DNA from: Apium graveolens
Taxonomy: Eukaryota; Streptophyta; Magnoliopsida; Apiales; Apiaceae
Length of the DNA stretch: 64,000 nt
Assembly (NCBI RefSeq): GCF_009905375.1
Contig: NW_027420594.1
Span: forward strand, 1-64,000
Direction: 5' to 3'
The notes under the pieces were generated by a model. That model saw only the letters and a program-made list of their open reading frames with translations. It did not search any database and was not told where the DNA came from. A program made the translations under genes and the position numbers. Positions within the stretch are counted from its first letter, which is position 1; each line of letters starts with the position of its first letter. Below are positions 1-64,000 of the stretch, piece after piece.

Positions 1-236
1 AGGAAACCCAGTATTATGATTAGTGTGTAAAGAGCACATTTCTTTGTCGATAACCTAGTGGTGAGGAAGTTAGCAATTTCCATGTCTGCTATGCAAGGAA
101 AACTTCAGGCAATTGGAGAGACCCTTACTTTGTAGCAGAAGTCATAAGGCCGGGAACGTATAAGCTAAAGACTATTGGAATGCGAACCTATTAAAAACAC
201 TTGGTACACTTCCAGATTCCGCAAATTTTTCTAGTA
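1..236 (+). pseudogene. Ty3/gypsy (Tat-type) integrase C-terminal fragment, INT-b
   Basis: Broken 3' end of a gypsy integrase, cut on the left by the window edge. Recognisable pieces are the C-terminal module with 'MQGKL', 'RDPYFVAEVIRPGTYKL' and 'NTWYTSRFRKF', which match the Tat-lineage pattern of a GKL...W.GPY.V.EVI.PG.Y.L stretch followed by TWN...LR.YY. Single-base indels (for example the missing base in 'cttcaggcaattgg' and the extra base in 'gactattggaatg') break the frame. The rest of this block in its unit context is seen at 19420, 30357 and 44660. No activity is possible. Confidence 0.8.
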
Positions 237-606
237 CACCTCTCTAAAGCCTTCCTGTTTATTTATTTTGGATTATTAAATTTAGTCATTTACTTAGTAA
301 TGTTATTTGAATCTCCTAATGGCGAGCATGTAGGACATTATATGAATTTCCAATTTTAATGAAATTTATATTTTTTCCCTTTTTATTCTCAATTTATGAT
401 TATATCCCAAAGTCCATGAATGGTATATATAGGGGTAAGTACATTTGAAGGAAGATGGAGATTCTGGAGGGATATAGGGAGCCCCGAAGAGGTGACCATA
501 ACCGGCTGTCAAGCCACTACGAACTACTCCCGAAATGAATTAAATGTTTAATGATAAGAAGGAAACGGATTGAGGCTTGGAAAGGCGAAGAGTTAGATAA
601 TTGACT
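237..606. other. Non-coding gypsy-derived spacer between INT-b and gag
   Basis: Conserved in all four units (also about 20039-20370, 30933-31309 and 45236-45612). No convincing coding sequence is seen on the plus strand. A minus-strand open stretch is open in U2 and U3 only and runs antisense into gag, so it is not called. Integrase C-terminus and gag C-terminus lie only about 375 bp apart, too short for an LTR plus full gag, so the segment probably marks an internal deletion of a gypsy element or of a tandem gypsy pair. Confidence 0.45.
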
Positions 607-1609
607 GGGTTTACACCACTTAATGCGCTGATTTCCAAATTTTCCACTAATAAAAGGCAACCCAGTTTTCTTCCGACCAGCTAAAATTAAGATGGCCAAC
701 CACATACGAATTCCGATATGTATTGTTACTACCAAGAATATAATGAGCAAAATAGTGATGAATATTTTCACTTGAAGAAGCTGATTAAAAAATGATCAAG
801 GCTGAAGAACTCAATGAATTTCTAAGAGACTCGAGGGATGAGTTGGGGCCGAATGAGACAAGGAACACAGAGCCAAAAATGAGATATCAGGGAGAGGTGA
901 AGAACAAATTCGGGAAGCAATACCCTTGAGTTGACAGTAAAAATTTCAAGAAAAGGTACGCTCATCGAGTTTATAATTTATACTAGTTCAGGCCTTCTAG
1001 ATAGACTATGTCGCTCTCCTTCAAGAAAGAGGACTACAAGGATGTCATATAACCTTATGAAGATCCGCTGATAATCCACCATGTCATCGGGGAAATAATA
1101 TATGGAAAGTGTTAGTAGATGAAGGGAGTTCGTCTAATATCTTATTTCATCGGACGTATAGCAAAAAGAACCTAGCTGGACTACAGGTGGAGCCATGCCA
1201 TGAGGTACCTCTTGAGGCCTTCGACGGACTGCATATACCTTGTGAATGTACAATTACTTTACATATTAGTACCAATAAAATGTCATATAGGTAAAATTCT
1301 ACATTGTAAAATAAGTAAAATTCTACATCGTAAGATTCTAAAATCCCCTATAACGCACTCCTAGGAGAACCATTATTTTTGGCCTTCCAAGCTATTGGGT
1401 CAATCCCCAATCTCAAGATGTAGTACCCAACTGAGAAGGGTGTCGGGGAAATGAGAGAAGACCAGGGGACAACAAGAATTATCATGCTTAAAAATCTCGA
1501 CAAAGATCAAGATTATGAAGAGAATGACACCGGTGGTAAAAGCAAGCATTCGGAGGCCAAACCCAATGGAAATAAACAATTGTTAAACATTGAACTAGAA
1601 AAACTCTAG
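607..1609 (+). pseudogene. Ty3/gypsy gag C-terminus and protease remnant (U1)
   Basis: Degenerate gypsy segment. It begins with an FTPLNA-like gag motif. Next comes the gag tail with a 'MYCYYQEYNEQNSDEYFHLKKLI' pattern, which resembles the Tat-type YCxFHxDHGHxTEECxxLK block with Cys/His residues lost. Then comes a retropepsin-like region 'VLVDEGSSSNILF' (family pattern VLIDGGSSADILF). After it an 'LLGEPLFLAFQAIGSIPNLKM' stretch and 'EKGVGEMREDQG' match the segment following protease in Tat polyproteins (FPTE.G.G.V.GDQ). Several stops and indels interrupt it, including a short deletion in 'accacatacgaattcc'. Confidence 0.72.
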
Positions 1610-1659
1610 GCTGACCTATCTTGCACAATTGTGGAGCCCACCACCGAACGGGAAGTAAG

Positions 1660-1960
1660 TTAAAGTATATGTTAGATATTCCACTAATGATTTTCCAATA
1701 TTGCTTGGCAAGCATAATTGTATGGAAGTTCCTCAAACTCCTAACTCATAGACCACCACTATATTGACATTTCAAGATATTTTCATGGTTTATCAATTCA
1801 ATTTCTTCAACCCCCGGGATATGACATATGAGTGTTCAATTATCAGCACAAGTATTAAGACTAAAGAACACAGTAGACTTAACATAATGGACTACTTGTC
1901 AAGACAACGCTCACACCTCTATAAAATACACTTCATATTCCTTCCGTCTACACTCGTTGC
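1660..1960 (+). other. Unrecognised open stretch after gypsy protease (U1)
   Basis: In U2 (21468-21692) and U4 (46710-46934) this stretch is open for 74 codons and contains 'LTFQDIFVVYQFNFFNPRD'-like peptide. In U1 and U3 a C-to-T change makes a TAG ('ctcatagacc'). It sits between the gypsy protease remnant and the inverted L1 LINE. I do not recognise it. It may be gypsy-derived or flanking DNA. Confidence 0.3.
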
Positions 1961-2800
1961 TTGAAAAAGAAAAAATAATCATCACCAAATAACACATGGG
2001 AGATACTTGGAGCTCCTCTAGCAACCTTAACTCCATGAAGCAAACATGTTTCTTCTAACTTTCTAATGATAGATTTAAACCTTCCGCGCATAGAATATAC
2101 AAGTAGGGAGAGATTGGATCTCCATGTCGAAGTCACCGTTGCGGATGCATATCAACAAAAATTCCACTACTGTGTATAAAACTATATGAGAATTTCAGAA
2201 CAATATCATAATATTAGAAATCCAGGCTTAGTGCAAACCAAATTTATGCAACATTTGTTTAATAAATCTTTATTCCAACCTATCTTATGCCTTAAAAATA
2301 TCAATTTTTAAACCAACCACATCCTTTTTTCCCTATGACTTCAAATGCAATCATTTCATTATAAGTTAATAGCATCCGTTCATTAAAAGCACTTTATTTG
2401 TTAAACATTATCGAGTTTAAACATCATTTAAATTTATTCTCCAGCACCTTAGATAATATACACATCAGAACATTATCAAGAGAGATAGGTCGAATATCTA
2501 AATAAGATGTATAAGCATAAGATTTAGTTCCCTTGGCCCATGTTCTCATGTTCTGTATCAAAGAAAGTCCCACAAAATTGAACAACATATCTTCTAACAA
2601 TATTCCAATAAGTTTGAAAAATTCCGGCTTCAACCCATGTGGACCCGGTGACTTATCTTGATGCATGACAAAGTCTATAATTTTTGGATCTCAACCTCCA
2701 GTATATTTCTTGCCATCTACAAACCCATGTTCTATGTTAAATGCAGTAAAAATAATATTTCTTCCATTAATTGTCATTTGCCTAATATTTTCTAACACTT
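1955..2800 (-). pseudogene. L1-type LINE reverse transcriptase fragment (U1)
   Basis: Minus-strand remnant of a plant L1 LINE RT. Reading the minus strand, 'MHQDKSPGPHGLKPEFFK' and 'SYLDIRPISLDNVLMCILSKVL' match RT boxes (DKSPGPDG..P.FF; RPISLCNV..KI.SK.L). A different frame then gives 'DPISPYLYILCAEG', and 'HGVKVARGAPSISHVLFGDDYFFF' is the catalytic-box region. The normal plant L1 motif is FADD; here it reads FGDD. Frame changes between the pieces and missing endonuclease, ORF1 and poly(A) show a truncated dead copy. Confidence 0.78.
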
Positions 2801-3590
2801 AAAAACTTTTAAGCATTCACTACTATTTAGAGGTTTAGTATTTTTACTTCTTATATAATTTGTTTGTCTTATATATTTTATAATTCTTTCTATCTCTATT
2901 GTTATATGCTTTAATTTTTATGTTCTATATTTTTATAAATTGTATAATGTTCTGTATTTTTAATAAATTAAATTTCTATAAATATATGATTTAATTTTGT
3001 TTAACATCATTTTTTGGTTCCTATATATTATTTTGTGTTCTCTAATAGTATTTTTTGTAACTTATTTATATTTTGTAATGAAATTAAAAATGTTTAGTGT
3101 ATGTTTAATATTACATATCACTATTGAAATTTAATGTGTAAGGTAAATTTTGTGGAGTTTGAATTTTCAATATTTTTTAATACTTTAAATAACTTTTAAA
3201 CATTTTATATTTTTTCACATTTTCTATATTTTGATATGTGTTGTAATTCTTTGAATTATGTGCTTCCTTCCATTTTTCTATTTATTATATGTTCTATTTT
3301 TCATGTTCTATATTTTATACATTGTATTTTATGTAATGTATTTGAAATAAAGTAAAATATAAATAAATATATGATTTAAGTTTGTAAGCATTCATTTTAG
3401 CGTTTATATATTATTTTATGTTCTATAGTTGTTTTTTGTATAAATATTTATATATGTGTTCAATATAATTTTAATACAATTATTAAAGTTTAATGTGTTA
3501 GGTAAAATTTTAGATCTAAGGAATGCACAATAAGAACAAAACATAATATAAATAACGAATGAATTAAACAAAGAAATGATGAGTTAGAGA
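2801..3590. other. Very AT-rich spacer (U1)
   Basis: No gene seen. Long T and A tracts and repeated variants of 'tgttctatattttt' and 'ttatatattattttatgttct' recur throughout. The same block follows the L1 fragment in all units. Its composition is like a matrix-attachment or relic-LTR region, but no ends could be defined. Confidence 0.6.
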
Positions 3591-4010
3591 ACAAACCTTC
3601 ATGATTGTGGGTGAGTTACTAGGTTACCATTAAAATTGGGTTATGGTTAAACCTTCATCAATCATTTAGATGAACGTTCATAGAACCCAATAACTTTATT
3701 AATAACCACTTGTTATTTTGAATAAATTAATAACCACTTGTTAATAATAAATTTTAGAGGAAGGTTCATACAAACTAGTAACTTAAGCTATGAACTAATT
3801 GTACTTTTTTGTTCTTTTTCTTAAGGAACTCATTTCTCTATTTTTTATCAATTTATTGTTTTTTAAATTTTGAAAAATTATTCCTTTATAGGCATGATGA
3901 AAACATATCTAAAATATATATTATATTTTTAAAATGATTTACAATTTGTATGGTACAATTTTATAAGAGCTGAGACATCTTGAAAATCATATAAAGAGCC
4001 TAAGGTTTAT
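3591..4010. repeat. Left part of module R-A (U1)
   Basis: Contains 'aacttttattaataaccacttgtta', 'gaggaaggttcat' and 'ttgttctttttcttaaggaactca'. The same elements in the same order occur, diverged, at the left of R-C in U2 (29190-29460), U3 and U4. This is one of the similarities showing that R-A and R-C derive from one ancestral repeat. No gene is seen in it. Confidence 0.6.
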
Positions 4011-4301
4011 CAACTATTTGGAGAACCCGAAATTCTTGGAGAACGTGAGCTGTTTTTTGGAAGTACATCTCCTCCAAGTCACAAATCCTATTGTGAACAT
4101 GGGTTCATCCTCTGTAAAATTGATAGTAGCGTTGGGAGTAGCAAAAGAAACAAAATTAGGAAATAGCCACATGAGGAACTCCAAGGAATTATTAGGATAA
4201 TGTTGAATAGCACTACCACCAATGCCACCACTATCAAGGTTTTCACCACTAGCGATCCTAATAGGCCAATGGAACCGGGACCAACACCATAACTAAAACC
4301 A

Positions 4302-4926
4302 CTACCTCCGAATATTACCGAACATACAACCAGTGCTACCACTAAAGCTACCAGCAATGCCACCACCAATGCTTCCACTTAAGCTACCACGAATGCTACC
4401 ACCCTTCCCACAATTAAGACAATATACCACCAATGTTGAAACTATATATACCACCAATGGTGAAAGTATGACAACTAGCCATGCCACTACTAAAGCTACC
4501 AGCAATGTTACCACCAATGCCACCACCAATTGTACCACCTGTAATACCATAATTAATGTGGCCACCAATGGAAATGCTTAAACTACCACGAACTTTAACA
4601 CCAACACCAATAATACCACCACCAATTATCCGACCAAAAATATCACTTCCAATACCGCCAATTGCACTAACAAGAGCACTACAACCAATGTCATCATCAA
4701 TGCCACCAAATCCACTACTAATGTTATCGTCTCTAGTACCACCAATGTAACCACTAAAGATGCTAGTCATGCTACCCCCAATGTCACTACTAAGACTACC
4801 TAATATACCACCAATGCTACCACCGTTGATGCCATAATTAAAGTTACCACCAATGACACTACTTAAGTTAGCACGAACTTCACCACCAACAATACCACCA
4901 CAAATTCCACTACTAAGACTATGAGG
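4302..4926 (-). pseudogene. Glycine-rich protein exon, broken copy (U1)
   Basis: Minus-strand Gly/Ser/Ile-rich sequence built of short 'GGxIxxS'-like units. Compared with the open U3 and U4 copies, U1 has an 8-base loss in 'ttaagacaatataccacc' that shifts the frame after about 170 codons. The base change at 4927 turns the putative acceptor TTTTCAG into TTTTCAT. The plus-strand Pro/Thr-rich open frames over this block are antisense shadows. Function unknown; Gly-rich repeats of this type occur in plant cell-wall proteins, but there is no diagnostic domain. Confidence 0.55.
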
Positions 4927-5330
4927 ATGAAAATGGTGAGCGTACGAAATATAAGTTTACCCACCTGTTCAAGTATTGAAATATAAGTTTTTACAAAACT
5001 ATAATTTGTCCCAGATAGAGCCTACATCTTTACCAAGTAAGAAATCTCATTTTCAACTATATATCCGGTAATGTAAAGTTAAATAGTGATTACTACTGGA
5101 TTCAAGAAAAATCATAACTATATACTTTTTGAATAGTTACTGATCTATTACATCAATAGAAGGTTCTAGTGAGGCTGAAAATGGTGAGCCTACGTGTTCT
5201 TGTATTGTTATATAAGTTTTTACAGCACTATAATTTGTCATAAACAGAGCCTAAATCTTTATAAGTAAGAAATCTCATTTTCAACCATGTGTCAGGTAAT
5301 ATAAAGGTAAATAGTGATGAGGGCTTCACT
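4918..5330. repeat. Imperfect tandem duplication in R-A intron-like segment (U1)
   Basis: Two diverged direct copies about 250 bp apart. The first begins 'gaggatgaaaatggtgag' (4921) and the second 'gaggctgaaaatggtgag' (5171). Each continues through 'ataagtttttaca', 'ctataatttgtc', 'agagcct' and 'gtaagaaatctcattttcaac'. On the minus strand both carry a potential splice acceptor 'caccattttcag' (mutated in the first copy of U1). The same pair is in U3 (35631, 35881) and U4 (50046, 50266). Confidence 0.7.
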
Positions 5331-5402
5331 TGTACTATGTGCATATATATTTATTTTATATATTTGCATAGTAAAGTTTAAAGAAGAACAAATAAAGCTT
5401 AC

Positions 5403-5512
5403 ACTAGTAGTTTGATGAAGAGGAGAAACATAAGGGACTTGGAGCATTTTCTTCATTATTTGTGGAACTTGTTGCAAATAGCAAGAAAAATAAAATTCCT
5501 CTACATATGTCT
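5403..5512 (-). pseudogene. R-A exon-like block (U1)
   Basis: On the minus strand a 110-nt block lies between an acceptor 'ttttttcag' and a donor 'gtaagc'. One frame is open across it and reads '...YLQQVPQIMKKMLQVPYVS...'. It ends in phase 0, which is compatible with the glycine-rich exon further left starting at 'CCT CAT AGT'. A paralogous block lies in each R-B. Other frames are also nearly open, so the true frame is uncertain. Confidence 0.35.
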
Positions 5513-5644
5513 CTGAAAAAAGGTCACACATAAACATAAAATAAATTTAACAGTATAATTAAACAAATATGAAGATAAAATATAAATAATATATGGGCTT
5601 CTTAGCTATAAATTTTCATTTTTTAGTATATCATGTATTTGATT

Positions 5645-7351
5645 ATAATTGCTAAAATCCTGTGCATCTCCCTTATTTTTATAGATCGGCACTACCATGC
5701 TAAGCCTCCATTCCTGCGGTATGACACTATTCCAAAGTATATTGTGGAATAACCTCGTTAGCCATTTCTCTCCCTCTTCACCCAAACACAACCATACATC
5801 TATATGTATTTGATCTGGCCCTATAGCTTTACCTCTCCCCATCTTAGGTAATGCTCCCTTAACTTCGGCTCTGCTCATAGAAGGCTGAACACCAAAGTCA
5901 AAGTCAGATGCACTATCTGATCCTATCACCCTAACACCAATTCTCTCCTCATTAAATAACTCCTTGAAATAGTTATGCCATCTATTCCGAATATCCTTAT
6001 CCTTCACTAGCACGTATCCATTAACATCCTTTATACACTTAACAAAACCTAAATCTCTCCTCCTCCTTTCTCTAACCTTTGTCAATCTATAAATACCATT
6101 TTGACCCTCTTTTGTACCAAGGTGATTATACATAGCCTCGTACGCTTTTGATTTTGCCTCTGCTACTGTCTTCTTAGCCATACGTCTAGCTTCCTTATGT
6201 AAAATTCTTCTCATATCAACTTGTTCATTATCTTGGCAACACAAAAGTTCCCTAAAACGATCATGTTTAATTTTTACTCGCTCCTGCACCTCTTGGTCCC
6301 ACAACCAAGCTTTCTTCTGCACCTGAACCTTTCTTCAGGTAACCCCTAACATACCTGTAGCTACATTTTTGATTGTACAGGGCAATCGATTCCACATTCT
6401 ATTAACATCCTCATCATAAAATCTGTCTTTTGCCAACCCAATCCTTTCTTTAAAAATACCTACTTTGTCTCCCTTTGGATTTTTCCATAAAATGTTCGGT
6501 GTCACCTCTCTATTATCTTGTACTACTCTTTTCCTTATACATATATCCATTACCAATAAACGATGTTGAGTAGTACATGCCTCACTCAGGAATACTTTAC
6601 AATCTTTACAATCCATGTTGCCTTTTCTCATAAGAAGATAATGGATTTATGAGTTACAACCTCCACTCCTAAAAGTAATCAGATGATCATCCCTTTTTTT
6701 AAAACAAGAATTAGTAATCATTAATTCATGTGCCAAAGCACACTCCAAAAGATCCCACCCACTCTTGTTCCTCAACCCAAAACTAAAACCCCCATGAATA
6801 CCTACATAACCATCTGATTGTTCGCCAATATGACCATTAAAATCACCTCCTATATATAAATTCTGGTCCCTAGGTATCAACCTAACTATTTCATCCAAAT
6901 AATCTCAAAAAATCTTTCTCGCTAACTCACTCAAACCAACATGGGGTGCATACACACTTACAAAATTAACGATCTCTTCATTAACTACGAGTTTAATCTT
7001 CATAATCCTATCACTGACTCTACTCACTTCTACTATATTCTCCTTCAAGAGAGAACTTATCAAAATACCCACACCATTCCTTGTATTACCAACCCCTGAA
7101 TACCACAATTTAAACCCGTTAGCTTCCTTAGTACTACTACCCTTCCACTTAGTTTCCTGAATGCAAATCACATCTACCTTTTTTTTCTTTAACATATCCA
7201 CAAGTTCTAAAAATTTCCCGGTCAGAGAACCTACATTCAGCGTACCTACTCGAAAATAGACATTAGTTGACCTTTGCCCCTCCCGAGAAACTCTTCTCCC
7301 TAAATTACTACCACTATCACCACCACCATCCCTACTTCTTACCAAATCCAT
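5645..7351 (-). pseudogene. RTE LINE endonuclease and RT N-terminal part, inverted (U1)
   Basis: Minus strand. ATG at 7351, peptide 'MDLVRSRDGGGDSG'. The AP-endonuclease follows with 'GTLNVGSLTGK', 'ICIQETKWKG', 'VYAPHVG', 'GGDFNGHIGEQ', 'GLRNKSGWDLLE' and the C-terminal 'TTQHRLLVMDI', which hold the metal-binding and catalytic residues (E, D/N, H). Next comes RT linker sequence ending 'PQEWRLSMVVPIYKNKGD'. Defects are a Trp-to-stop at about 6902, a Gln-to-stop within the expected SQIDY motif near 6645 (shared by all copies) and a stop near 6333. U1 retains the uninterrupted start (T8 run at about 7179). Confidence 0.8.
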
Positions 7352-7945
7352 CAATTAAAGATAACTCTATTACACGAAAACACACAACTTATAAATGAAA
7401 AACACACACTATATAACAAGAAACTATAAAATGCAAATAAATTATAAATAAATAAATAACAAGGAAATATATCTAATGACAACTCCTATAGATACCCTAA
7501 TTATCAAACCTGATGACAAGGCTTTCATCTCCCTGTATTTCTTTTAATATTGGCCCTTTTATTTTGGTACTATCGGAGAATCTAGTCCATTTAGAGGCAA
7601 TTTCTACACCAGTTGAAGTATATTTATATGTGGTTGTGTTTGTTTGGTGGCGGATCAAGTAAGGAGTTATTTTCCAAACCCGGAGAACTGGGGGAGAAAA
7701 ACAACAAAGTAATTACGAGTAAACCGGGATGGCAACATGTTTGTATATTGCTTTGGATGAATAAACCACAGTTTTCTTGGATAAAGGAAGGACGTTTGTA
7801 TTATTTAATATAAAAGATCATATCTCTTCTTTCGCATTTATTTTTCATAAATGAAATAATAACACAGAAAGAAATTCAGAAATTGTGTATGTTAGAGAGT
7901 AGAGGGGGTAGATAAGATTAGAGATGGCCGGAAATGAATGGATAA
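7352..7945 (-). other. RTE LINE 5' UTR, inverted (U1)
   Basis: Lies between the endonuclease start codon and the inversion junction, so on the minus strand it is best read as the element's 5' untranslated region. A plus-strand frame at 7613-7813 ('MKYIYMWLCLFGGGSS') is antisense and differs in length between copies, so it is not called as a gene. Confidence 0.55.
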
Positions 7946-8943
7946 ATGGTTATTTGGGAAAGTTTGGTGGCTAAAGGGGTGCCATGGATATATTTGAGGG
8001 TGATACAAGAAATGTATTTTCAGGTAAGGACGTGTGTTCGAACACCGGTTGGGGATGCTCATTACTTTCCGGTAGGAATAGGACTTCACCAAGGATCCTC
8101 GCTAAGCCCATTTCTTTTCACAGTTATAATGGATGTTCTAACTAGGGGATTCAGGATAGTGTACCTTGGTGTATGCTATTCGCGGATGATATAGTCATAA
8201 TTAAGGAGACAAGGGTTGCAGTTAATGTAACATTAGAGCGATGGAGGTATATATTGGAGTCTAATGGATTACGGATTAGTCGATCTATGACGGAATTTTT
8301 GTGGTGTAACTTTAGTAATCTACCGAATGGTGAGGGGGTGGATGTTCTGATGGCCGATCAAGTATTGCCCCCCAAAGATAATTTCAGGTATCTGGGTTCC
8401 GTTTTGCATAAGGAAGGGGGGATAGATGCGGATGTTAAACATCGTATCAAATCAGGATGGCTAAAATGGAGGGCTGCTACAGGAATATTGTGTCATAGGA
8501 GGGTTCCTTTCAGAGTAAAAGGAAAACTTTATAGGGTAGCGATCAGACCGGCCTTGTTATACGGGTCGGAGTGCTGGGCATTGAAAAAGGCTCAAGAGTG
8601 TAGGTTAGAGGTGGCGGAAATGAGAATGTTAAAGTGGATTTATGGACGTACCATGTTGGATAGATTGTCAAATGGTTTTTTCAGGAATAAATTACGAGTT
8701 GCGCCTAGTGCAGAAAAAGTGAGGGAAGGTCGATTGTGTTAGTTTGGGCATATTAGGCGAAGAAGGATAGCTACTCCAGTGCGCAGGGTGGAGGATTTAG
8801 TGGTTTCAGGATCAAGAAGGAGAGGGAGGCCAAGGAGGACTTGGGTTGATCTACTCACGCTGGACTTAAGGGCCCTAAACCTCAGTGCTGACATGACCTC
8901 AGATAGGAGATCTTGGCGTAGGAGGATAAGGGTGGCAGATTAG
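7946..8943 (+). pseudogene. RTE LINE RT C-terminal part (U1)
   Basis: 3' half of the RTE reverse transcriptase. Features in order: 'GVPWIYLRVIQEMY', 'GLHQGSSLSPFLF', the catalytic box 'CMLFADDIV', 'FRYLGSVLHKEGGIDADV', 'RPALLYGSECWALKK', 'VAEMRMLKWIYGRT' and the C-terminal 'RLRWFGHIRRRR / GRPRRTW' module. U1 has a one-base loss near 8146 ('aggggattcagg'; U4 'aggggtattcagg') and a TAG at 8740-8742 where U3 and U4 read Trp. Dead copy. Confidence 0.82.
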
Positions 8944-9606
8944 TTTGGACTTTCGTAGTTTGTATGTGTAGTTTGTAATTTAGTGCACTTTTTGGTAGTT
9001 GGTAATAATTTTATTTGTCTAGTACTTATACTTCATAAGTTTGGTAGTTTATTCTCATAGTTATTAATAGTCTTAGTTGCTCGTGTAGGTGCTACAGTGT
9101 CGTTTTTTAATGCCATATGACTAATTACATGATATGGTAGATGGATTGTGTGCTGTTTTAGTTTTTTTGATAGGTTTGTGGTACTTCAAATATTTAGTTT
9201 AGAGAGTGATCTCCAAGGGAAATATGGCGTTTGAGGCATCAAAAGGAGTGCAGTAGGAGAAATAGAAGAGGCTTACAACAATGAACCAATGAACGAAGCT
9301 TTTTACGGTAAGTCCAATGTGAAGAAGGACATGGGCTGAGATATTGTATCATTGTTTATCTTTGCCTCGCTTTCCGTACTTATGTTTATGGATCATTGCT
9401 TACCTAGGACACACATATTTGTGCATACACACAAGTCGTTGGTCTTTTAAGGAAACAACCTCTTGATTCTTTAGAATGAGGGTAAGGCTGCGTACGATAC
9501 ACCATCCCCAGACACTGCCCTAGGTGGTATTATTATGTACGATTGATTGATTGATTGAAAAAAGTTATTATAAATGTAACTCAATTCTTTTTCTTAACAT
9601 TGACAT

Positions 9607-9820
9607 TTAATTCTGAAAGGGATAATTCTTGTTATGGAGGTCATGTACAAACAAATACAAGTGGCATTCCATGTCAATCTATATACATATATAGAAGAAA
9701 AATGGGATACTTATTGTACGGTTTTAAGTTTTAACAAAAGTTTGTTCAAAAAACATATAAGAAATAAAAATGAAGAAACAAGGAAATACAAATTATTACC
9801 TTAACCTTGTTAAACAACAT
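9607..9820 (-). pseudogene. R-A exons 1 and 2, broken (U1)
   Basis: Minus-strand remnants of two small exons downstream of a promoter-like region. Exon 1 (9800-9820) starts ATG and ends 'AAGGTTAAG' before a 'gtaata' donor. Exon 2 (9607-9678) follows a 'tatatag' acceptor and reads 'IDMECHLYLFVHDLH...' to a TAA. 'LYLFVHDLHNKNYPF' weakly recalls the FYxHD...KNPT strand of dirigent proteins; this is too short to rely on. The R-B paralogues have better-preserved splice signals. Confidence 0.3.
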
Positions 9821-9938
9821 CAATTCATGAAAACCTCCAAATCTTATCTACTTAATCCTCCACCAATTCATTTGGAGATGTGTTTAACCTTAGAACACCA
9901 AAACACTTTTTTATAGAAAATATAAAAAACACCAAAAT

Positions 9939-10076
9939 ACTATTTTATAGCCATGTAAAAGTTTATTTTGTTTGTAAGGCTGCGCCCACTTGTGCTTGTA
10001 TTAGGGTTTTACCTACCTTTTTTATAAACTCCATTTTGCAGGCCTAGTTGTATATCATGGGTTTCAATGGGCCCAA
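9939..10076 (-). promoter_or_regulatory. Housekeeping-type plant promoter motifs in R-A (U1)
   Basis: On the minus strand, in transcription order: site II-like TGGGCC context within 'caatgggcccaata' (about 10066-10076), telo-box AAACCCTAA (10001-10009) and a TATA-like 'CTATAAAATA' (about 9940-9949), then the R-A exon remnants. Telo-box plus site II is the known combination of many plant ribosomal-protein and replication gene promoters. Activity is not shown. Confidence 0.5.
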
Positions 10077-49330: not shown

Positions 49331-49421
49331 CACTACCACCAATGCCACCACTATCAAGGTTTTCACCACTAGCGATCCTAATACGCCAATGGCACCGGGA
49401 CCAACACCATAACTAAAACCA

Positions 49422-50495: not shown

Positions 50496-50606
50496 ACTAG
50501 TAGTTTGATGAAGAGGAGAAACATAAGGGATTTGGAGCATTTTCTTCATTATTTGTGGAACTTGTTGCAAATAGCAAAAAAAAATAAAATTCCTCTACAT
50601 ATGTCT
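50496..50606 (-). pseudogene. R-A exon-like block (U4)
   Basis: As 36113-36222 but with one extra A in 'gcaaaaaaaaataaa', which shifts the frame near the 5' end; 'QQVPQIMKKMLQIPYVS' is still readable. Confidence 0.3.
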
Positions 50607-50738
50607 CTGAAAAAAGGTCACACATAAACATAAAATAAATTTAACAGTATAATTAAACAAATATGAAGATAAAATATAAATAATATATGGGCTTCTTAGC
50701 TATAAATTTTCATTTTTTAGTATATCATGTATTTGATT

Positions 50739-53040: not shown

Positions 53041-54039
53041 ATGGTTATTTGGGAAAGTTTGGTGGCTAAAGGGGTGCCATGGATATATTTGAGGGTGATA
53101 CAAGAAATGTATTTTCAGGTAAAGACGTGTGTTCGAACACCGGTTGGGGTTGCTCATTACTTTCCGGTAGGAATAGGACTTCACCAAGGATCCTCGCTAA
53201 GCCCATTTCTTTTCGCAGTTATAATGGATATTCTAACTAGGGGTATTCAGGATAGTGTACCTTGGTGTATGCTATTCGCGGATGATATAGTAAAAATTAA
53301 GGAGACAAGGGTTGCAGTTAATGTAACATTAGAGCGATGGAGTTATATATTGGAGTCTAATGGATTGCGGGTTAGTCGGTCTAAGACGGAATATTCGTGG
53401 TGTAACTTTAGTAATCTACCGAATGGTGAGGGGGTGGATGTTCTGATGGCCGATCAAGTATTGCTCCCCAAAGATAATTTCAGGTATCTGGGTTCCGTTT
53501 TGCATAAGGAAGGGGGGATAGATGCGGATGTTACACATCATATCAAATCAGGATGGCTAAAATGGAGGGCTGCTACAGGAATATTGTGTGATAGGAGGGT
53601 TCCTTTCAGAGTAAAAGGAAAACTTTATAGGGTAGCGATCAGACCGGCCTTGTTATACGGGTCGGAGTACTGGGCATTGAAAAAGGCTCAAGAGTGTAGG
53701 TTAGAGGTGGCGGAAATGAGAATGTTAAAGTGGATTTATGGACGTACCATGTTGGATAGATTGTCAAATGGTTTTTTCAGGAATAAATTACGAGTTGCGC
53801 CTATTGCAGAAAAAGTGAGGGAAGGTCGATTGCGTTGGTTTGGGCATATTAGGCGAAGAAGGATAGCTACTCCAGTGCACAGGATGGAGGATTTAGTGGT
53901 ATCAGGATCAAGAAGGAGAGGGAGGCCAAGGAGGACTTGGGATGATCTACTCACGCTGGACTTAAGGGCCCTAAACCTCAATGCTGACATGACCTCAGAT
54001 AGGAGATCTTGGCGCAGGAAGATAAGGGTGGCAGATTAG
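53041..54039 (+). pseudogene. RTE LINE RT C-terminal part, open 332 codons (U4)
   Basis: Uninterrupted frame from 'MVIWESLVAKGVPWIYLRV' to 'RRKIRVAD' and TAG, holding 'GLHQGSSLSPFLF', 'CMLFADDIVKI', 'RYLGSVLHKEGG', 'RPALLYGSEYWALKK', 'MRMLKWIYGRTMLDRL', 'RLRWFGHIRRRR' and 'GRPRRTWDDLLTLDLRALNL'. It is only the C-terminal half of an RTE RT, cut off from its endonuclease by the inversion, so it is called a fragment despite being open. The initiating Met is a chance codon at the inversion joint. Confidence 0.83.
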
Positions 54040-54653
54040 TTTGGACTTTCATAGTTTGCATGTGTAGTTTGTAATTTAGTGCACTTTTTGGTAGTTGGTA
54101 ATAATTTTATTTGGCTAGTACTTATACTTCATAAGTTTGGTAGTTTATTCTCATAGTTATTAATAGTCTTAGTTGCTCGTGTAGGTGTTACAGTGTCATT
54201 TTTTAATGCCATATGACTAATTACATGATATGGTAGATGGATTGTGTGCTGTTTTAGTTTTTTTGACAGGTTTGTTGTACTTCAAATATTTAGTTTGGAG
54301 AGTGATCTCCAAGGGAAATATGGCGTTTGAGGCATCAAAAGGAGTGCAGTAGGAGAAATAGAAGAGGCTTACAACAATGAACCAATGAACGAAGCTTTTT
54401 ACGGTAAGTCCCATGTGAAGAAGGACATGGGCTGAGATATTATATCATTGTTTATCGTTGCCTCGCTTTCCGTACTTATGTTTATGGATCATTGCTTACC
54501 TAGGACACACATATTTGTGCATACACACAAGTCGTTGGTCTTTTAAGGAAACAACCTCTTCATTCTTTGGAATGAGGGTAAGGCTGCATATGATACACCC
54601 TCCCCAGACACTGCCCTAGGTGGTATTATTAGGGACGATTGATTGATTGATTG

Positions 54654-56142
54654 AAAAAAGTTATTATAAATGTAACTCAATTCTTTTTCTTAACATTGAC
54701 ATTTAATTCTGAAAGGGATAATTCTTGTTATGGAGGTCATGTAAAAACAAATACAAGTGGTATTCCATGTCAATCTATATACATATATAGAAGAAAAATG
54801 GGATACTTATTATACGGTTTTAAGTTTTAACAAAAGTTTGTTCAAAAAACATATAAGAAATAAAAATGAAGAAACAGGGAAATACAAATTATTACCTTAA
54901 CCTTGTTAAACAACATCAATTCATGAAAACCTCCAAATCTTATCTACTTAATCCTCCACCAATTCATTTGGAGATGTGTTTAACCTTAGAATACCAAAAC
55001 ACTTTTTTATAGAAAATACAAATAACACCAAAATACTATTTTATAGCCATGTACAAGTTTATTTTGTTTGTAAGGCTGCGCCCACTTGTGCATGTATTAG
55101 GGTTTTACCTACCTTTTTTGTAAACTCCATTTTGCAGGCCGAGTTGTATATCATGGGTTTCAATGGGCCCAATATAGTTCAAATTTTTGATTCAATATAC
55201 TTTGCTCCATGTATTATGTAAATTAATTGGATGTGGATGTAGAAGCCTAAAGAAGTATTACTCTAATTTATTTTGTATTGTAAATAAAATGACATTCTAA
55301 AAATCAAGTGGTAAGCAGTGTATAAAAAACATAACTTCAAAATGACATTTTTTCAAAAATTCTATATTTTATATAGTGAGATTATATATAAACCACCTAT
55401 TGACCTTAATTAACAATAATATATGTACTAATCCAACCCTAACTAACAATAATAAATTATTTGTCATGCACAAAATAATATTTACATAACCACATTTAAT
55501 CAAATTAAATTTCTACAAGTATAAGATAGGAAAAAAAAATTTGACAAAAATTTATACGTATGAGAAAAATGATACGGTTTATAAAAATATTTACTAATTG
55601 TTTTGTTTATTTAAACATAAGAATTAAAATGAATGATAATATTACTGTTGATTTTTATTTAATTATTAATCAATTTTATTTTGAAATTATAATGGTCTGA
55701 CTTGACCATATGTACTTTGACGTAATTATAATGAATATTTTTAATATTTTCAACTGTAATAAAAATTTATTATTGAAAACCATGCTTATATTTTTTGAAC
55801 TCAAAATTTTCAATAGACAAGTTTTCTAATAAATTTTGGGTCTTTCCACAAAGTAGGAAATGCAAAGGGGCAAAGTCAGCCCACTTTGTATTTTTTTGCT
55901 AGCATTCACAAAAAGGTTGACCAGTACACAAAGACATTATTTTGTCTAATATGTACCAAAATATAATTCCATTATAATTTTAAGATGAATAAGGAGGATA
56001 GGTTCATATATTAGTTCTCGAATTTCTTTTTTGAATAAAATTATAAATATTAAACTTTAATTCAAAAAAATATATTTTAAAAAGATATGTAAAATTATGA
56101 ATTTTAGATAAAAAAGTAAAAAAAATATGTGTTATGGGACGG
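54654..56142. repeat. Right part of R-A and AT-rich flank (U4)
   Basis: Homologue of 9558-11039: exon 1 and 2 remnants on the minus strand, promoter motifs, then AT-rich DNA including the 'gagaaaaatgatacgg...aattaaaatgaatgataa' flank at about 55561-55640. An 8-base difference ('aaaggttgaccagtacac') distinguishes it from U1. No gene in the last 500 bp. Confidence 0.55.
55035..55172 (-). promoter_or_regulatory. Housekeeping-type promoter motifs in R-A (U4)
   Basis: Minus strand: site II in 'caatgggccc' (55161-55170), AAACCCTAA at about 55097-55105, and TATA-like CTATAAAATA at about 55036-55046. Conserved with U1. Confidence 0.5.
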
Positions 56143-57305
56143 TGATTATGGCTAACTAAGATTAGTTTTAAATTTTACCGGATAATCCTTACTGAGATTT
56201 TATAAACACTTCAATAATCTGAGAATGATGGTAAGCTAAGATGACTAAATGCAGTGCAGAAAATAGTATGCAGAAAAGTAATAAGAACTGACAAGAATTT
56301 TAGCCGCGTTCGACCCGTAATCCCCTATGATCTACCACCTGGTCCCTTACCAACTTGGTAAGACAATATATTATTGAATAACAGTAAGTTAAAACTTAGT
56401 AAGATAATATACAATAATATATCTCCCTTTATCCCAGCTTATAATGGCTTGCTAAAACCCTGTTTCTAAACCTGCCCACTAAGTACTAATTAGCCATAGC
56501 ACTAGTTCACCAAACCCTTATTTCTCTTAGCCAACTATCCAGCAACTAATCAATATAAATTGAACAATACAAATGGAATGATAAAGTAATCACAACTTAA
56601 ACTATAGACTCTCTAAGATAAAACACGTGTATATAATTAAAAGCTGGAGAGTATTTTAGAACCAATAAAGATCAGTGAGTTGTGAGTGTTCTTGCTGCAA
56701 TACATCAGTCATAAAAACTGCAAGAAAACTCATATATAAATATACACTAACGTTTAAGACAATCTCAGCAACTTACAACAGTTAGAATCCAATTCTAACA
56801 TTTAAGTTAGTTGGGATGATTTCCAACATTCATATATACGTTTAATATAAGAGATAAAGAAAGAAAAATGATCAGAAAAAGTCTCTTCTATTTTGTATGA
56901 GTATAAAACGTTTCTTATCAGATTTCTAGGAGATACAGTTTGAAAAGAAAACAAACTCCTACAAATTAGGAACTGTTTTAAAGTTAGAAATTTTTTTATA
57001 GCACAAGCTCTAATATATATAAACCATGTATAATATAATAGAGAAGTCCTTATAATTCGTTAAAAGAAATTCCTGAAATATCTCCTTGAAAATATATTTC
57101 CTTGCTGAGTCTAGACTGTCCATCTTGGCTTGCTATTGTTCTGAATAATGTGATCATAGCTTGCCGAAATAGATTACTGTCTTATGACAGCTTGCTGTCA
57201 TGATCCTTAAACAACAATGTCATTAAGATGATATATCCTACAAACAGTCTTAAATAACAACATAATGGCTTGCTGTGTTGTGATCATCAAAACTAAGGAG
57301 TTACA
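56143..57305 (-). repeat. Copia 3' LTR (U4)
   Basis: Near-identical to 11040-12223 apart from small losses (for example around 56430 and 56490). Minus-strand start TGTAACTCC. Confidence 0.8.
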
Positions 57306-57886
57306 ATCTCCCCCTTTTTGATGATTACACACATTTAGGAGAATTATAAAATTCCCCCTAAATCTATGCATATCTCAAAATTAAGAAATACTTTATAACA
57401 CACTACTACAAATAATTAAACTATAAATAACAACAAATGCATATCCAATACAACCAACATAGCAGCATATCATTACCTCACCAATTTTTAACATAACCAA
57501 AGCAAATCAAGTATTAAGCAAAAATAACTATCATAAACCAAGTTCATAAACCAAGTAGCAAACCACACCAGATTAACCATAAACCAACAGATGAAACAAG
57601 TCTTAAATAAACCTTAAATAAACATAAATCTCCTAAATTTCGTCACCTTAAAGCATCAAAAAGATCTAGGTTGAGGGTTGATCAGAAGTGTTGAGAGCAT
57701 CCTCTTTTGGAGAAAAGAAAGCATCAAAATACACAAACAAGTGAGCACCAATAAACAGATAATGGCATGTCAAAATTAATAAATCAAATCAAACACAAAT
57801 TATGACATTTAATAAACAATCATACTAAGCTAATATGAAAATTAATAGTAAGTTAACATTACCAAATTTCTAAAGATAGCTTGCCA
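57306..57886. other. Copia 3' non-coding region with polypurine tract (U4)
   Basis: Polypurine tract on the minus strand adjoining the LTR; otherwise A-rich, no gene seen. Confidence 0.6.
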
Positions 57887-59512
57887 TTATACACTGTACA
57901 TGACAAGTTCTCTTCGAATGGTAGAAAATCTTGCTTCACCAAGGGGTTTTGTAAAGATATCTGCCAATTGATATTCAGTAGGCATAAAAACTAATTTAAT
58001 CTTACCTTTGGCAGCATTATCTCTTAAGAAATGGTGATAAAAATCAATATGCTTTGTTCTTGAGTAATTCACAGGATTCTTTGATATGTTGATGGTGCTA
58101 GTATTGTCATAATAGATTGGAACTTTGCCACACTTGATTCCAAAATCTCGTAGAGTGTGAAGCATCCACAAAATTTGAGAGCAACAACTACCCCTACCAA
58201 ATACTCATCTTCTGCTGTGGATAATGCAACTGAAGTTTGTTTCTTACTTTGCCAAGATAGAAGAGTTTGTCCTAAGTATGTACAAACACCACTTGTGCTC
58301 TTTCTACGAGTTTGACATCCTGCATAATCTGTACCACTATACCCCACAACATCAAATGTTCTTGTAATAGGATAAAATAACCCAAGATTAATAGTCCTAC
58401 TTAAATATCGAAATATTCATTTAACTACATTTAAGTGTGATTCCTTAGGTTTAGCTTGAAAACGAGCACATACACAAATACTATACATAATATCCGGCCG
58501 GGAAGCAGTAAAATATAAAAGACTACCAATCATGCCTCTATATTTTTTGATATCAACTGCCTTACCTTTCTGAAGTCAGCCCTGCTGTTTTGATTCATTG
58601 GTGTAGATTTTGACTTGACATGCTCAAATCCAAATCTAGTCAGCAAGTTCTTCACATACTTTGACTGATGAACATAGATGCCATCCTTAGATTGCTTGAT
58701 TTAGGAGTCCCAAAAATAGTTCAGCTCACCCATCATGCTCATGTCAAATTCACTGCTCATACACTTAGAAAACCACTGACACATAGAATCATTAGTGGAT
58801 CCAAAAATTATATCATCTACATATATCCCGACAATCAAAATATCATTACCATTTTGCCTAGTAAATAGAGTAGGATCGATTTTACCTCGAATGAAGTCAT
58901 TTTTGGCCAAAACTTACTAAGCCTCTTGTACCAAGCCCTTGATGCTTACATTAAGCCATATAATGCCTTCTTGAGCTTGCAAACATAGTCTAGATGTTGT
59001 TCATGTTCAAAACCAGGGGGTTGCTTGACATAAACTTCTTCTTCCATAAATCCAATAAGAAAAGCACTTTTGACATCCATTTGATGTAGCTTGATCTTCT
59101 TGTAGCATGCATAAGCAAGAAGCATCCTAATTGATTCCAATCTAGCTACTGGAGCATAAGTTTGATCAAAGTCAATGCCTTCTTGTTGATTGTACCCTTG
59201 TGTCATAAGCCTTGCTTTATTTCGAGTAACAGTACCAAATTCATCCTCTTTATTCTTGAAAATCCATTTTATACCAATTACTGAAGTATTCTTTAGTGGC
59301 TTGACAAGTTCCCAAACATCACATTGTTCGAATTGATTGAGTTCTTCTTTCATAGCCAAGATCCAATTTTCATCTTCGAGTGCTTCTTTAACATTCTTAG
59401 GTTCCTCTTGAGCTAGAAATGCAGCATAAGCACAAAAAATTGTGTTGCCTTTCCTTGTCTTGAGTCCATAAGTAATATTACCAATAACCTGTTCTGGAGG
59501 GTGATTCTTCAC
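57887..59512 (-). pseudogene. Copia RT and RNase H remnant (U4)
   Basis: Better kept than U1: the first RT segment is open for 188 codons (59512-58946) through '[23 protein letters not shown]' and '[11 protein letters not shown]'. The catalytic 'YVDDIIFGSTND' lies near 58810. RNase H is split by a one-base loss near 58194 into two frames ('SGTDYAGCQTRRKSTSGVC' and 'MWMLHTLRDFG...QLADIFTKPLGEARF'). Stops remain between the pieces. Confidence 0.85.
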
Positions 59513-59594
59513 TGTCCGTGTAGATTTTGGAAATGAATGCTTTGAGATATGTTCATGAGAGGTCTTCCTTATCTTTGAGATTCTTCACTGTCCA

Positions 59595-60752
59595 TGTAGA
59601 TTATGGTAAACTAAGATTAGTTTTAAATTTTACCCGATAATCGCTTACTGAGATTTTATAAACAGCTCAATAATCGGAAAATGATGGTAAGCTAAGATGA
59701 CTAAATGCAGAAAAGTAATAAGAACACACAAGAATTTTAGCCAGGTTCGACCCTTAATCCCCTATGGTCTACGTTCGGGTCCCTTACCAACTTGGTAAGA
59801 GAATATATTATTGAATCACAATAAGTTTACAAGTACAAGATATAATAATGTATCTCTCTTTATCCCAACTGCTGATAATGGCTTGGTGAAACCATATTTT
59901 TGAACCTGCCCTCTAAGTACTATACTACCCCGCAGTACAAACTTCTCTAGCACTAGTTCACCAAACCCTTGTTTCCCTTAGGCAACTATCCAGCAACTAA
60001 TCAATATAAATTGAACAATATAAATCGAATGATAAAGTAATTATAACTCAAACTATAGACTCTCTAAGATAAAACAGGTGTATATAATTAAGAGCTTGAG
60101 AGTATTTTAGAACCAATAAAGATCAGTGAGTTGTGAGTGTTCTTGGTGTAATACGTCAGTCATAAAAACTGTAAGAAAACTCATATAGAAATATACACTA
60201 ACGTTCAAAACAACCTCAACAACTTAAAATGGTTAGAATCCAATCTTAACATTTAAATTAGTTGGGATGATTTCCAACGTTCATGTATACGTTTGATAGA
60301 AGAGAGAAAGAAAGAAAAACGATCAGAAAAAGTCTTTATTTTGTATGAGTATAAAACATTTTCCAATCAGATTTGTAGGAGATAGAGTTTGAAAAGGAAA
60401 CAAACTCCTACAAATTAGGAACTATTTTAAAGTTAGAAAACATTTTATAACTGAGCTCTAATATATATAAACCACATATAATATAATAGAGACTCCTTAC
60501 AATTTATTAAAAGAAATTCCTAAAATTTCTCCTTGAAAATTTGTTTCCTTGTTGAATCTGGACTGTCCATCTTGGCTTGCTATTATTTTGAATAACGTGA
60601 TCATAGCTTGCTAAAATAAATTACTGTCTTATGAGAGCTTGCTGTCATGATGCTTAAACAGCAATGTCATTAAGCTCATATATCGTGCAAACAATCTTAC
60701 ATAACAACATGATGGCTTGTTGTGTTGTGATCATCAAAACTAAGGAGTTACA
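59595..60752 (-). repeat. Copia 5' LTR (U4)
   Basis: Near-identical to 14508-15665. The direct repeat 'gattcttcactgtccNtgtagatt' at about 59505 and 59579 adjoins it, as in U1. Confidence 0.8.
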
Positions 60753-61262
60753 TTACTAAGCTTGGTCTAAGCTTGGTCTAAGGTTTTAAGTAGTTCATCA
60801 TAATTTTATTGAGTTTGGTAAGAAATGACTATTATGTGGCCCACTAAGCTTTTTTTTTCTAACTAACAAATGGTAGAAAATGACAAGTTAAATTTTATAC
60901 CAACTTTGTAATTTTTAGTTATAATTTGAATCTACCAGTTATATTAGAGTTAGACAATATAATTTTTTTGAAAAAATATTTTAATAATTATACAAAGTAA
61001 TCATTTATGGAAAGAATTATAAGTTTGTAACTTTATTTTATAATGAGAATATATTTTCAACAAATAATTAATGCTCACAAAAATATATTAAAATTATTTA
61101 AATATCATTTATATTACTTATATATGGTACTCACCATTTTTTATAGTCCTTTGAATTATTTTAATCCAAATGATTGATTGGAATAAATAATTCTTTAATC
61201 ATTTCAATATGTTAAAAAAATACAAACAAATAATAAGATCTCCAAACTCTTAAGGTACCTAT
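60753..61262. other. Spacer right of copia (U4)
   Basis: Homologue of 15666-16176; no gene seen. Confidence 0.5.
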
Positions 61263-62031
61263 GCTCTAGAAATATGTTGTAAATTTTAAAAAAATATAAT
61301 AAAAAGGAGACCAAAATCTAAATTCAAAGTGTAGTCCAGTCCAGAAACCTAACTCAATTTTTGTCCAACCCCAAAACCTACCCCGTATGGGTCTAAATTG
61401 AGCTATTTAGCGAATATTCAAAAATGGATAACAAAGACAAAACTTCAAAAAAATTCATGTCTCAAGAAATTGATGTATTAGTATATAACTAATAGAAGCT
61501 CTCAAGGATAGTTGCACATCCTCTGAGAGAGCCTTAATCAACTTTTATCCATTAATATAAAAATTGTTCTTCATTATTGAGTACCTAATTCGATAAAATA
61601 ATCATTAATGGAAGATAAAGAAACTCAAGAAAATCTTCCACCACCAATAGCAACAAACCAAATCAACCATAATATGAACATATATGAATCCATCAAATTT
61701 CTAATCTTGAAGATTAATGAATATCCTTTCTCGAAAGTCAAGATGGCCATATGTTTGGAGGTAACACATCCTGAATACTTGAACATGATGTATGATGGTC
61801 CTCATAGGCCCATGAAACTAGTTGTTGTTATTCTTGATGAAGAAAAAAATATGGTTGAAAAGGATAAAAAGGATTACTATCGTGGGGATCTTTAATCTAT
61901 TATCAAAAATATAAAACTTGGACATCTTTTGCATAACAGTCTAGACAGTATGATATCCAATAGGGTGATTGGATGCAAAAAAGCCAAGGAAATTTGAGAC
62001 ACTCTAGAGGTTAAGTGTCAAGGCACAACTG
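61263..62031 (+). pseudogene. Copia gag, N-terminal part (U4)
   Basis: Leader, then ATG 61608 'MEDKETQENLPPPIATNQIN', 'MNIYESIKFLILKINEYPFSKVKMAICLE', 'YLNMMYDGPHRPMKLVVV' to a TAA at about 61893, then 'NIKLGHLLHNSLDSMISNRVIGCKKAKEI' with a further stop. It is cut at 'aaggcacaactg', where R-B begins. Unlike U2 the start is in frame with the body, so the A-run expansion is private to U2. Confidence 0.78.
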
Positions 62032-62956
62032 CATTTATGTTAAATGTTTGCATAAGAAAAGTTAAAAAATTACAAAGAAAGCTTACACGCCTAGATTGAT
62101 GAAGAGGAGAAAGAGAAGGGACTTGGAGCATTGATAAAGAGGACAAAGATAATGAACTTAAGAATTTTCATCATTTTTTGTGGAACTTGTTGCAAATAAC
62201 AAGAAAAAAATAATTCATGTCCAAATGTCTCCTAAGTAAGGTCACACACAAATATAAAATAAATTTAATAAGATAATTAAACAAATATGAACATAAATAT
62301 AAATAATATGTGGGCTTCCTATCTATAATTTTTTGTTTTTTAATGTATCATGCATATTATTTATGAGGAACCAAAAATATAATATAAATATAACTAAATT
62401 TGTTTTTCTTACCTTGACATATAATGTTGAAAAGGATAATTCTTGAAATGGAGGTCATGTAAAAATAAATACAAGTAACATTTCATGTCAACCTATATAC
62501 ATATGTACAAGAAAAATAGGATACTTATTGTAGTGTTTTAATATTTATATATAATTTGTGGAAAAAATGCATAAGAAAGGAAAATGAAGAAATTCAAATT
62601 ATTACCTTAACCTTGGTAAACAACATCAATTCATGATACCCACCAAATGTTGTTAACCAAAATACTCTTTCATAGAAAATACAAATAACCCCAATTTATT
62701 ATTTTAGAGCCATGTACTAGTTGCTTATATTAGGGTTTTACCTACCTTTTTCATATCCTCTATTTTGTAGGGCCCAATTATGTATCACTGATTTTAATGG
62801 GCCTGATATAGTTTAAATTGTTTTTTGTTATAGTATCCTATTTTTATTACAAATTTCGAATTTTTTTACTTGTTATAAAAATATGATCTAACAAAGTGTG
62901 CTCGGTATTATATAAATTAATTGGATGTACATGTACAAGCCTATAGGTAAACAAGT
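62032..62956. repeat. Module R-B, right-truncated (U4)
   Basis: Left edge at 'catttatgttaaatgtttgcataag'. Exon 3, exon 2 and exon 1 blocks on the minus strand keep the frame of the U2 candidate; promoter motifs at 62700-62805. It ends at 'aacaagtattaa', where R-C starts; the AT flank and INT-a are deleted. Confidence 0.62.
62700..62805 (-). promoter_or_regulatory. Telo-box and site II motifs in R-B (U4)
   Basis: Minus-strand AAACCCTAA at about 62729-62738 and GGGCC motifs near 62770 and 62800. Confidence 0.45.
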
Positions 62957-64000
62957 ATTAACTTTTAATAACAACCACGTGTTAGTACCTAATTCTAGAG
63001 GAAGCTTGATAAAACCTAGTAACTTCTAATAATAACGAGTGGTTTGATTGTACTTTTTATCCTTTTATTATATTTTAAATATCGCAAAATTATTCTTTTA
63101 CATAGATTAGGAACACATATTAAAATATATTTTATATTTTTAAAATGATTTACAGCCTTTTCACTTTTTTACACATAACAATACCCTTTTATAGAACAAT
63201 AGTATTTCTTAGCCAACATGAAGAAACAATGAAATTCAAATTATTACCTTAATCTTGTTAAACAACATCAATTCATGATAACCTCAAAATCTTGTTGGAG
63301 AACCAAAATACTCTTTCATATCAAAATACTCTTTCATAGAAAATAAAAATAATGCCAAATTATTATTTTCTAACCATGTATAAGTTCATTTCTCATATCA
63401 GGGTTTTACCTACCTTTTTTATATCCTATCTTTTATAGGGCCCAATTGTATATGATGGGTTTTAATGTGGGGAATACAGTTTAAATTGTTTCTCTATTTT
63501 AGTATCAATTTCTTATTACAAATTTCGAATTCTTTTCCTTCTATAAAAATAAGATCTAACAAAGTGTGCTCCATGTATTATATAAATTAATTCGATGTAT
63601 ATTTACAAGCTAATAGGTAAAGAAGTATTACTCTAATTTATTTTGTATTGTAAACAAAATGACATTCTAAATATCAAGTGGTAGCATTGTATAAAAATTC
63701 AACTTAAAAATGATATTTTCTCAAAAATTTTAATTTTTTAGTGATATTATTTATAAAATCCCCACTAACCTCAACTAGCACTAATATAAGTACTACTACA
63801 ACCCTAACTAACAATAATATAAGCACTACTACAATAGATTCAAGTCTAAAAAACCGTCTCACTATAATGCACATATTTATTGTCATATACAAATTAATAT
63901 TTATTTTATAACAACATTAAATCAAATTAAATTTTTAGAGGTATAAGATACAATACAAAATTTTTGACACACAAGTTATACATTTGAGAAAAATGATACA
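62957..64000. repeat. Module R-C (U4, cut by window end)
   Basis: Begins at 'cttttaataacaaccacgtgttag', lacking the first few dozen bases of R-C. Lacks 'ttgttctttttcttacagaactc' (deleted near 63055). Telo-box near 63400 is altered to 'atcagggtttt'. Continues to 'gagaaaaatgataca', just short of the expected INT-b start. Confidence 0.6.

Follow-up and report, generated by a model that had tools for sequence, protein, structure and literature searches.

How does a stretch of plant DNA come to carry much the same succession of transposon pieces four times in a row? The question is raised by 64,000 nucleotides of the celery (Apium graveolens) genome (assembly GCF_009905375.1, contig NW_027420594.1, positions 1 to 64,000 of the forward strand), which we refer to as the window. 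We consider it very probable that the window arose by tandem segmental duplication of a single block of nested transposons with a composite length of ~22 kb. Old insertions are shared between units at identical junctions. Because the same inversion within an RTE-type long interspersed nuclear element (LINE) is found in three of the four units, and the same pair of copia long terminal repeats (LTRs) in two, whole blocks were copied, as opposed to elements inserting independently. Private losses and a recombinant third unit further indicate that the locus expanded through successive tandem duplications and through exchange between its units.

Layout of the array

Comparison of the window with itself by BLAST identified four units, with all blocks on the forward strand. 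The units are as follows.

1 to 19758, forward strand: unit 1 (U1), from self-BLAST and junction reading
19759 to 30696, forward strand: unit 2 (U2), from self-BLAST and junction reading
30697 to 44999, forward strand: unit 3 (U3), without copia and without the copia gag piece
45000 to 64000, forward strand: unit 4 (U4), truncated by the end of the window

The blocks recur at offsets of 19758, 30696 and 44999, giving start-to-start distances of 19758, 10938 and 14303 bp. These head-to-tail spacings exactly reproduce those claimed in an earlier note on this DNA. Blocks longer than 3.9 kb are 94.9-97.9% identical, and five order-1 resamplings of the window yielded no non-self matches at the same E-value limit. 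Segmental duplications are conventionally delimited by a length of >1 kb and an identity of >90%. The celery blocks exceed both values, are adjacent, and share one orientation.

Read from left to right, the composite unit holds gypsy pieces and an L1-like piece, followed by an AT-rich spacer and a glycine-rich-protein (GRP) pseudogene exon; then come repeat R-A with the RTE element inside it, copia, a copia gag fragment, R-B, and R-C. The earlier note had described the order gypsy, L1, AT spacer, R-A, (copia), R-B, (INT-a), R-C as recurring four times. That description held for the gypsy-L1-AT segment, R-B and R-C, each of which is present in all four units (R-B of U4 is cut at 62961, and R-C of U4 runs off the window at 64000). 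It did not hold for R-A, which is found in three units (U1 and U4 have it entire, U3 has it truncated at 40679, and U2 lacks it), or for copia with its two LTRs, which is found in two (U1 and U4). The RTE element is present in every unit except U2, and an integrase piece within R-B in every unit except U4. The composite unit with every segment kept is ~22 kb long, as the same note had estimated (over 22 kb), and the complete set occurs in no single unit.

The boundary at 1/19759 is arbitrary and does not represent a duplication junction, since, as we read the sequence, R-C continues into the first gypsy segment (S1) as one gypsy integrase stretch. At its left end, the window opens inside a gypsy reading. 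Because U4 is still within R-C at base 64000, the array continues rightwards.

Repeats and insertions older than the block copies

The three R repeats provide a second, older level of duplication. Their positions are listed below.

5327 to 5644, forward strand: left part of R-A (U1), left of the RTE insertion; 74.5% identical to U2 26253-26604
9558 to 10549, forward strand: right part of R-A (U1); 70.8% identical to 16800-17825
16508 to 18312, forward strand: R-B (U1), with a gypsy integrase piece from ~17826; the same start lies at 26322 (U2), 41165 (U3) and 62080 (U4)
18850 to 19873, forward strand: R-C (U1), continuing through gypsy integrase into U2; the other copies lie at 29516-30812, 43826-45115 and from 63231

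R-A is split by the RTE element, such that 5327-5644 corresponds to the left of R-B and 9558-10549 to its remainder. We compared the R core in nine copies, leaving out R-A of U3 and R-B of U4, which are cut before the core; U2, having no R-A, contributed R-B and R-C. Divergence was 1.4-5.8% within a type and 10.6-17.7% between types, and the tree separated the R-A, R-B and R-C types with bootstrap values of 96-100. These values bear out the suggestion that the three repeats are homologous and more diverged from one another than the units are. Because divergence between types exceeds divergence within types, the duplication of R clearly predates that of the units. R-B and R-C share a gypsy integrase piece that starts where similarity to R-A stops, and both are without the GRP exon. 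We also considered recombination between R copies as the founding duplication and set it aside: R-B and R-C form separate clades (seven core-bearing copies, with no sliding-window test for hybrids).

The GRP exon offers a probable source for R. Its copies were located by tblastn with the Apium protein LOC141701211 (P0241), whose matches are confined to U1, U3 and U4.

4207 to 4956, reverse strand: GRP pseudogene exon (U1)
34912 to 35666, reverse strand: GRP pseudogene exon (U3)
49239 to 50114, reverse strand: GRP pseudogene exon (U4)

The reading, which lies left of R-A, is 71-85% identical to LOC141701211; in U1, a second piece matches less well (56%). All three copies are interrupted by stop codons or frameshifts. 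A 76-bp stretch kept in U4 and absent from U1 and U3 matches the C-terminus of P0241. On the reverse strand, R-A would be the 5' region of the GRP gene, and it carries the motifs GGGCCCATT and AAACCCTAAT near each other, which we take to be common plant promoter elements. R-A is therefore probably the 5' region of the GRP gene, cut by the RTE element, and R as a whole probably originated from that region. The GRP reading had no match in Pfam at an E-value of 0.01 or 5. Among 5553 candidate proteins (those 0.55-1.75 times the query length and sharing exact words with it), only two, both from Apium graveolens, were related to it at E ≤ 1, the better one 81% identical. The GRP gene may thus be restricted to this lineage.

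The insertion that splits R-A is the following element, assigned by Pfam and tblastn.

5645 to 9557 (left edge approximate): RTE-type LINE with an inverted 5' part, common to U1, U3 and U4

Its endonuclease and the start of its reverse transcriptase (RT) are read on the reverse strand, and the end of the RT is read on the forward strand. The endonuclease domain (PF03372) was matched at 6908-7354 and the RT domain (PF00078) on the U4 copy. In tblastn, four of four reference proteins mapped down to 5636 on the reverse strand and then from 7949 on the forward strand, with 75 residues missing between. An inverted 5' part thus lies beside a direct 3' part with the break within the element, which is the arrangement of a 5' inversion. 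R-B represents the corresponding empty site, and ~10 bp of the target appear by eye to have been lost. No target-site duplication was found, the longest word common to both sides being 9 bp and lying away from the left edge. The two best protein matches are from Apium graveolens (86-87% identity); together with the protein matches of the copia RT and the GRP reading, they point to an Apiaceae genome close to celery. The element is a single, twin-priming-like insertion of a plant RTE. A keyword search of the literature for twin priming in plant RTE elements returned, by title, only human elements; this search is too narrow to claim novelty.

The copia insertion allows the order of events to be dated. 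It is present in two copies.

11041 to 15665, reverse strand: copia element (U1), coding region in pieces; LTRs at 11041-12223 and 14512-15665
56144 to 60752: second copy of copia (U4); LTRs at 56144-57305 and 59599-60752

The two LTRs within a unit differ by Kimura two-parameter (K2P) distances of 0.108 and 0.111, and for the same LTR compared across U1 and U4 the distances are 0.046 and 0.027. Because the distance within a unit exceeds the distance between units, copia inserted before the block was duplicated. At a rate of 1.3e-8 per site per year, the copia insertion would be about 4 million years old, and the block copies, which differ by about 0.01-0.05, would be about 0.4-2 million years old. 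Between U1 and U4, the 5' LTR is more diverged (0.046) than the 3' LTR (0.027). No 5-bp target-site duplication of copia was seen by eye.

Exchange, loss and growth among the units

Divergence between units is mosaic and falls into several classes, of about 1, 1.5, 2-2.6 and 3-6%. In S1, U2 is 4.1% from the other three units, which are 1.05-1.64% apart. R-C of U1 is ~5% from R-C of the other units. In left R-B, U1 and U4 differ by 1.6% and U2 and U3 by 1.1%, and the cross pairs differ by 3.0-3.4%. The same pair of units can be close in one segment and distant in another: U1 and U4 differ at 14 of 882 sites (1.6%) in left R-B and at 24 of 488 (4.9%) in part of R-C (Fisher's exact test, P = 0.0005). 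The comparison of segment S4 with U1 was weak (108-114 gap bases in ~390) and was not used. Such mosaic divergences are signs that units exchanged sequence, whether through crossing-over or through conversion.

U3 changes partner along its length. With U2 as the outgroup, 12 sites in S1 unite U1 and U3, compared with 2 and 1 for the alternatives. U1 and U3 are also alike in lacking the 76-bp stretch that U4 retains. Left of ~6.6 kb into the unit, 76 sites are shared by U1 and U3 and 29 by U3 and U4; right of that point, the counts are 24 and 56. The maximum chi-square value for this switch of partner (~37.3 kb in window coordinates), calculated without the 52 sites private to U3, was reached in 0 of 5000 permutations. 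U3 is a recombinant of two unit lineages, U1-like and then U4-like.

Six large junctions were read base by base, and each loss is private to one unit.

16508 to 16510 (U1): 0.43 kb missing relative to other units; 3-bp AGC microhomology
near 18815 to 18849 (U1): 0.6 kb missing relative to other units; 0-2 bp
23703 to 23786 (U2): ~12 kb missing (GRP exon, RTE, R-A, copia), lost in two steps from 23703, with ~80 bp matching U1 4030-4118 left between
40680 to 40710, forward strand (U3): junction J1, 40679/40708, with 15-bp filler and a 16-bp stretch present in one additional copy (TRF 40695-40728)
62030 to 62032 (U4): 1.7 kb missing; 3-bp TGC microhomology
62956 to 62961 (U4): 1.4 kb missing; 6-bp TATTAA microhomology

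Microhomology of 3-6 bp is present at three of the six junctions and filler at one. In this respect, the junctions resemble products of error-prone end joining.

J1, which joins R-A to sequence left of R-B, can be read in another way. The 8 kb missing from U3 may never have been deleted; instead, one 14.8-kb tandem duplication, with 25866-40679 copied as 40708-55066 and the join at 40679/40708, would have made U3. This would alter a single step of the block-duplication account and leave the remainder intact, and we regard it as plausible while leaning slightly towards a deletion. The two stretches differ at 216 of 14240 aligned columns (1.5%; 0.6-2.5% in individual comparison windows) in an alignment that omits one copy of a 505-bp repeat, and the filler and extra 16-bp copy at the join would suit such an event. 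However, over its left 6.6 kb U3 resembles U1 more closely than U4, so that a second event is required, and a deletion in U3 would be unsurprising given that each of the other three units carries a large private loss.

Two features of the sequence raise the question of whether some of the structure arose during assembly, with repeats wrongly joined or expanded. Self-BLAST detected a perfect 505-bp tandem copy at 26735-27745 in U2, even though U2 and U3 differ by 1.1% in left R-B; this copy is either a very recent event or an unmerged assembly overlap. In addition, the first 3.9 kb of U1 (1-3916) contains 23 private 1-bp indels, 11 of them in runs of three or more, compared with ~1 in the next 6 kb. 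This excess suggests a weak consensus at the left end of the window, perhaps a contig edge, and some of the private U1 substitutions in 1-3916 may also be errors. We nevertheless judge an artefact highly improbable: differences of 1-6% between units and private losses with clean junctions are not expected of artificial copies, and the mutual identity of the 505-bp copies points to one locus. Neither the 505-bp copy nor the indel excess changes our conclusion.

Collectively, these observations are consistent with a stepwise history of block duplication. The R sequence would have been duplicated first, giving rise to R-A, R-B and R-C, and R, probably the GRP 5' region, would have become joined in two copies to a piece of gypsy integrase. 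Insertions of RTE and copia would then have broken up the block. Two or more rounds of head-to-tail duplication would next have produced at least four units. Both duplication and exchange may have proceeded by homologous recombination between misaligned units, as crossing-over or conversion, with error-prone end joining perhaps initiating or trimming the events. The locus behaves as neutral heterochromatin turnover, and no function is needed to explain it. Several points weigh against this account. The contiguity of the units is that of the assembly, in which the 505-bp copy and the 23 indels of U1 may be faults of assembly or polishing. No junction of the founding duplication was found. A conversion tract and a crossover in U3 are indistinguishable, and losses at the six gaps, as opposed to gains elsewhere, are deduced from the presence of the segments in other units.

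Comparable systems and the remaining pieces

The earlier note had seen the logic of a higher-order repeat in this array. Part of that view stands: older R copies are nested in younger large copies, blocks are more alike between units than subunits are within a unit, and units exchange sequence. The remainder does not, as the subunits are not contiguous tandem monomers (the R pieces, 1-1.5 kb long, are separated by other sequence, with kilobases, including transposon DNA, between R-A and R-B), and no regular unit recurs many times, the 64 kb holding four units with different losses in each. The higher-order repeat is an apt analogy and not a class to which the array belongs. For the pericentromeric, sex-chromosome or B-chromosome setting that the note had offered as a possibility, this analogy is the one point in favour in the window. 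A true (peri)centromeric higher-order-repeat satellite with a ~22-kb unit, extending far past the window, would account for the two levels of divergence in the R copies, the exchange between units and an array that is open at least at its right end. We find it very unlikely, because just four units are in view with gaps that differ in each, the R copies are non-contiguous, and the longest row detected in the window by Tandem Repeats Finder (TRF) is 93 bp. It is likewise unlikely, but conceivable, that the window samples a much longer array in which the ~22-kb nested-transposon block serves as the repeat of a macrosatellite undergoing homogenisation in the heterochromatin of Apiaceae, caught early. 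In that event, its older phases (3-6%), younger phases (1-1.5%) and recombinant unit would still be readable here. If the array proves long, it would offer a natural setting for testing how ordinary heterochromatin gives rise to a satellite-like repeat, and the unit-specific deletions would be ready markers for distinguishing crossing-over from conversion.

Several published systems can be compared with the array. The nearest comparable case that we found is in maize CEN10, where nested CR elements form an adjacent duplication of 22.7 kb; it has a 5-nt match at the join, is ascribed to alternative end joining, and lies in a region that holds chimeric and deleted elements (PMC4806543). The two loci share a similar length, a unit of nested and partial retrotransposons, adjacent copies, short identity at the join and the presence of chimeric or deleted elements. 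They differ in that the maize duplication has two copies, lies within centromere 10 and is ~121,000 years old, whereas the celery array has four copies in view that are more diverged and show exchange between units (PMC4806543). Like the higher-order repeats of alpha-satellite and CentC, the array combines older, diverged subunits in younger, near-identical blocks with homogenising exchange; their monomers, however, are short and contiguous, in contrast to the separated R pieces in few, irregular copies (PMC8122249, PMC4806543). The kilobase-sized centromere repeats of Solanum verrucosum are also tandem units partly derived from transposons, but these form mostly uniform arrays of units in the kilobase range, unlike the irregular ~22-kb celery unit (PMC13232507). 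Transposon DNA has similarly expanded in tandem in Lathyrus satellites (PMC7004042) and Cassandra arrays (PMC7215508). In those arrays, the unit is part of one element or one small element, whereas the celery unit is a whole block of several elements and a dead gene. Because the celery genome is reported to be 92.91% repetitive, with LTR elements making up 85.75% (PMC8051603), a transposon-rich block is the expected background. A description of this locus was not found in the open-licence literature, which was searched by keyword and not by sequence. The array exemplifies a known route of plant genome growth and is no new kind of system. It offers a base-level record of transposon-rich plant DNA growing by block duplication and being reshaped through deletion and exchange between copies.

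The remaining pieces of the unit are as follows.

1 to 1291, forward strand: S1, end of gypsy pol with gag/protease-like gypsy pieces, from six-frame reading
2427 to 2690, reverse strand: weak L1-type reverse-transcriptase remnant, from six-frame reading
24125 to 25225, forward strand: copia gag fragment (U2), with PF14223 at 24515-24811 and the remainder from six-frame reading; U4 keeps only the left part

Pfam matched four of ten readings (PF03372, PF00078, PF07727 and PF14223). The six without a match include the gypsy (protease and integrase), L1 and GRP pieces; the names gypsy (S1, protease, integrase) and L1 are those that we presume from their motifs. In the window, an Rfam scan at the gathering score matched nothing, and ARAGORN reported no tRNA. 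The copia RT (PF07727) was matched on the U4 copy. Among the 7996 candidates sharing most words that were scored, two Apium proteins were 87-90% identical to it over 63% of the query, and the top four matches by E-value were from Tanacetum, with 56-66% identity.

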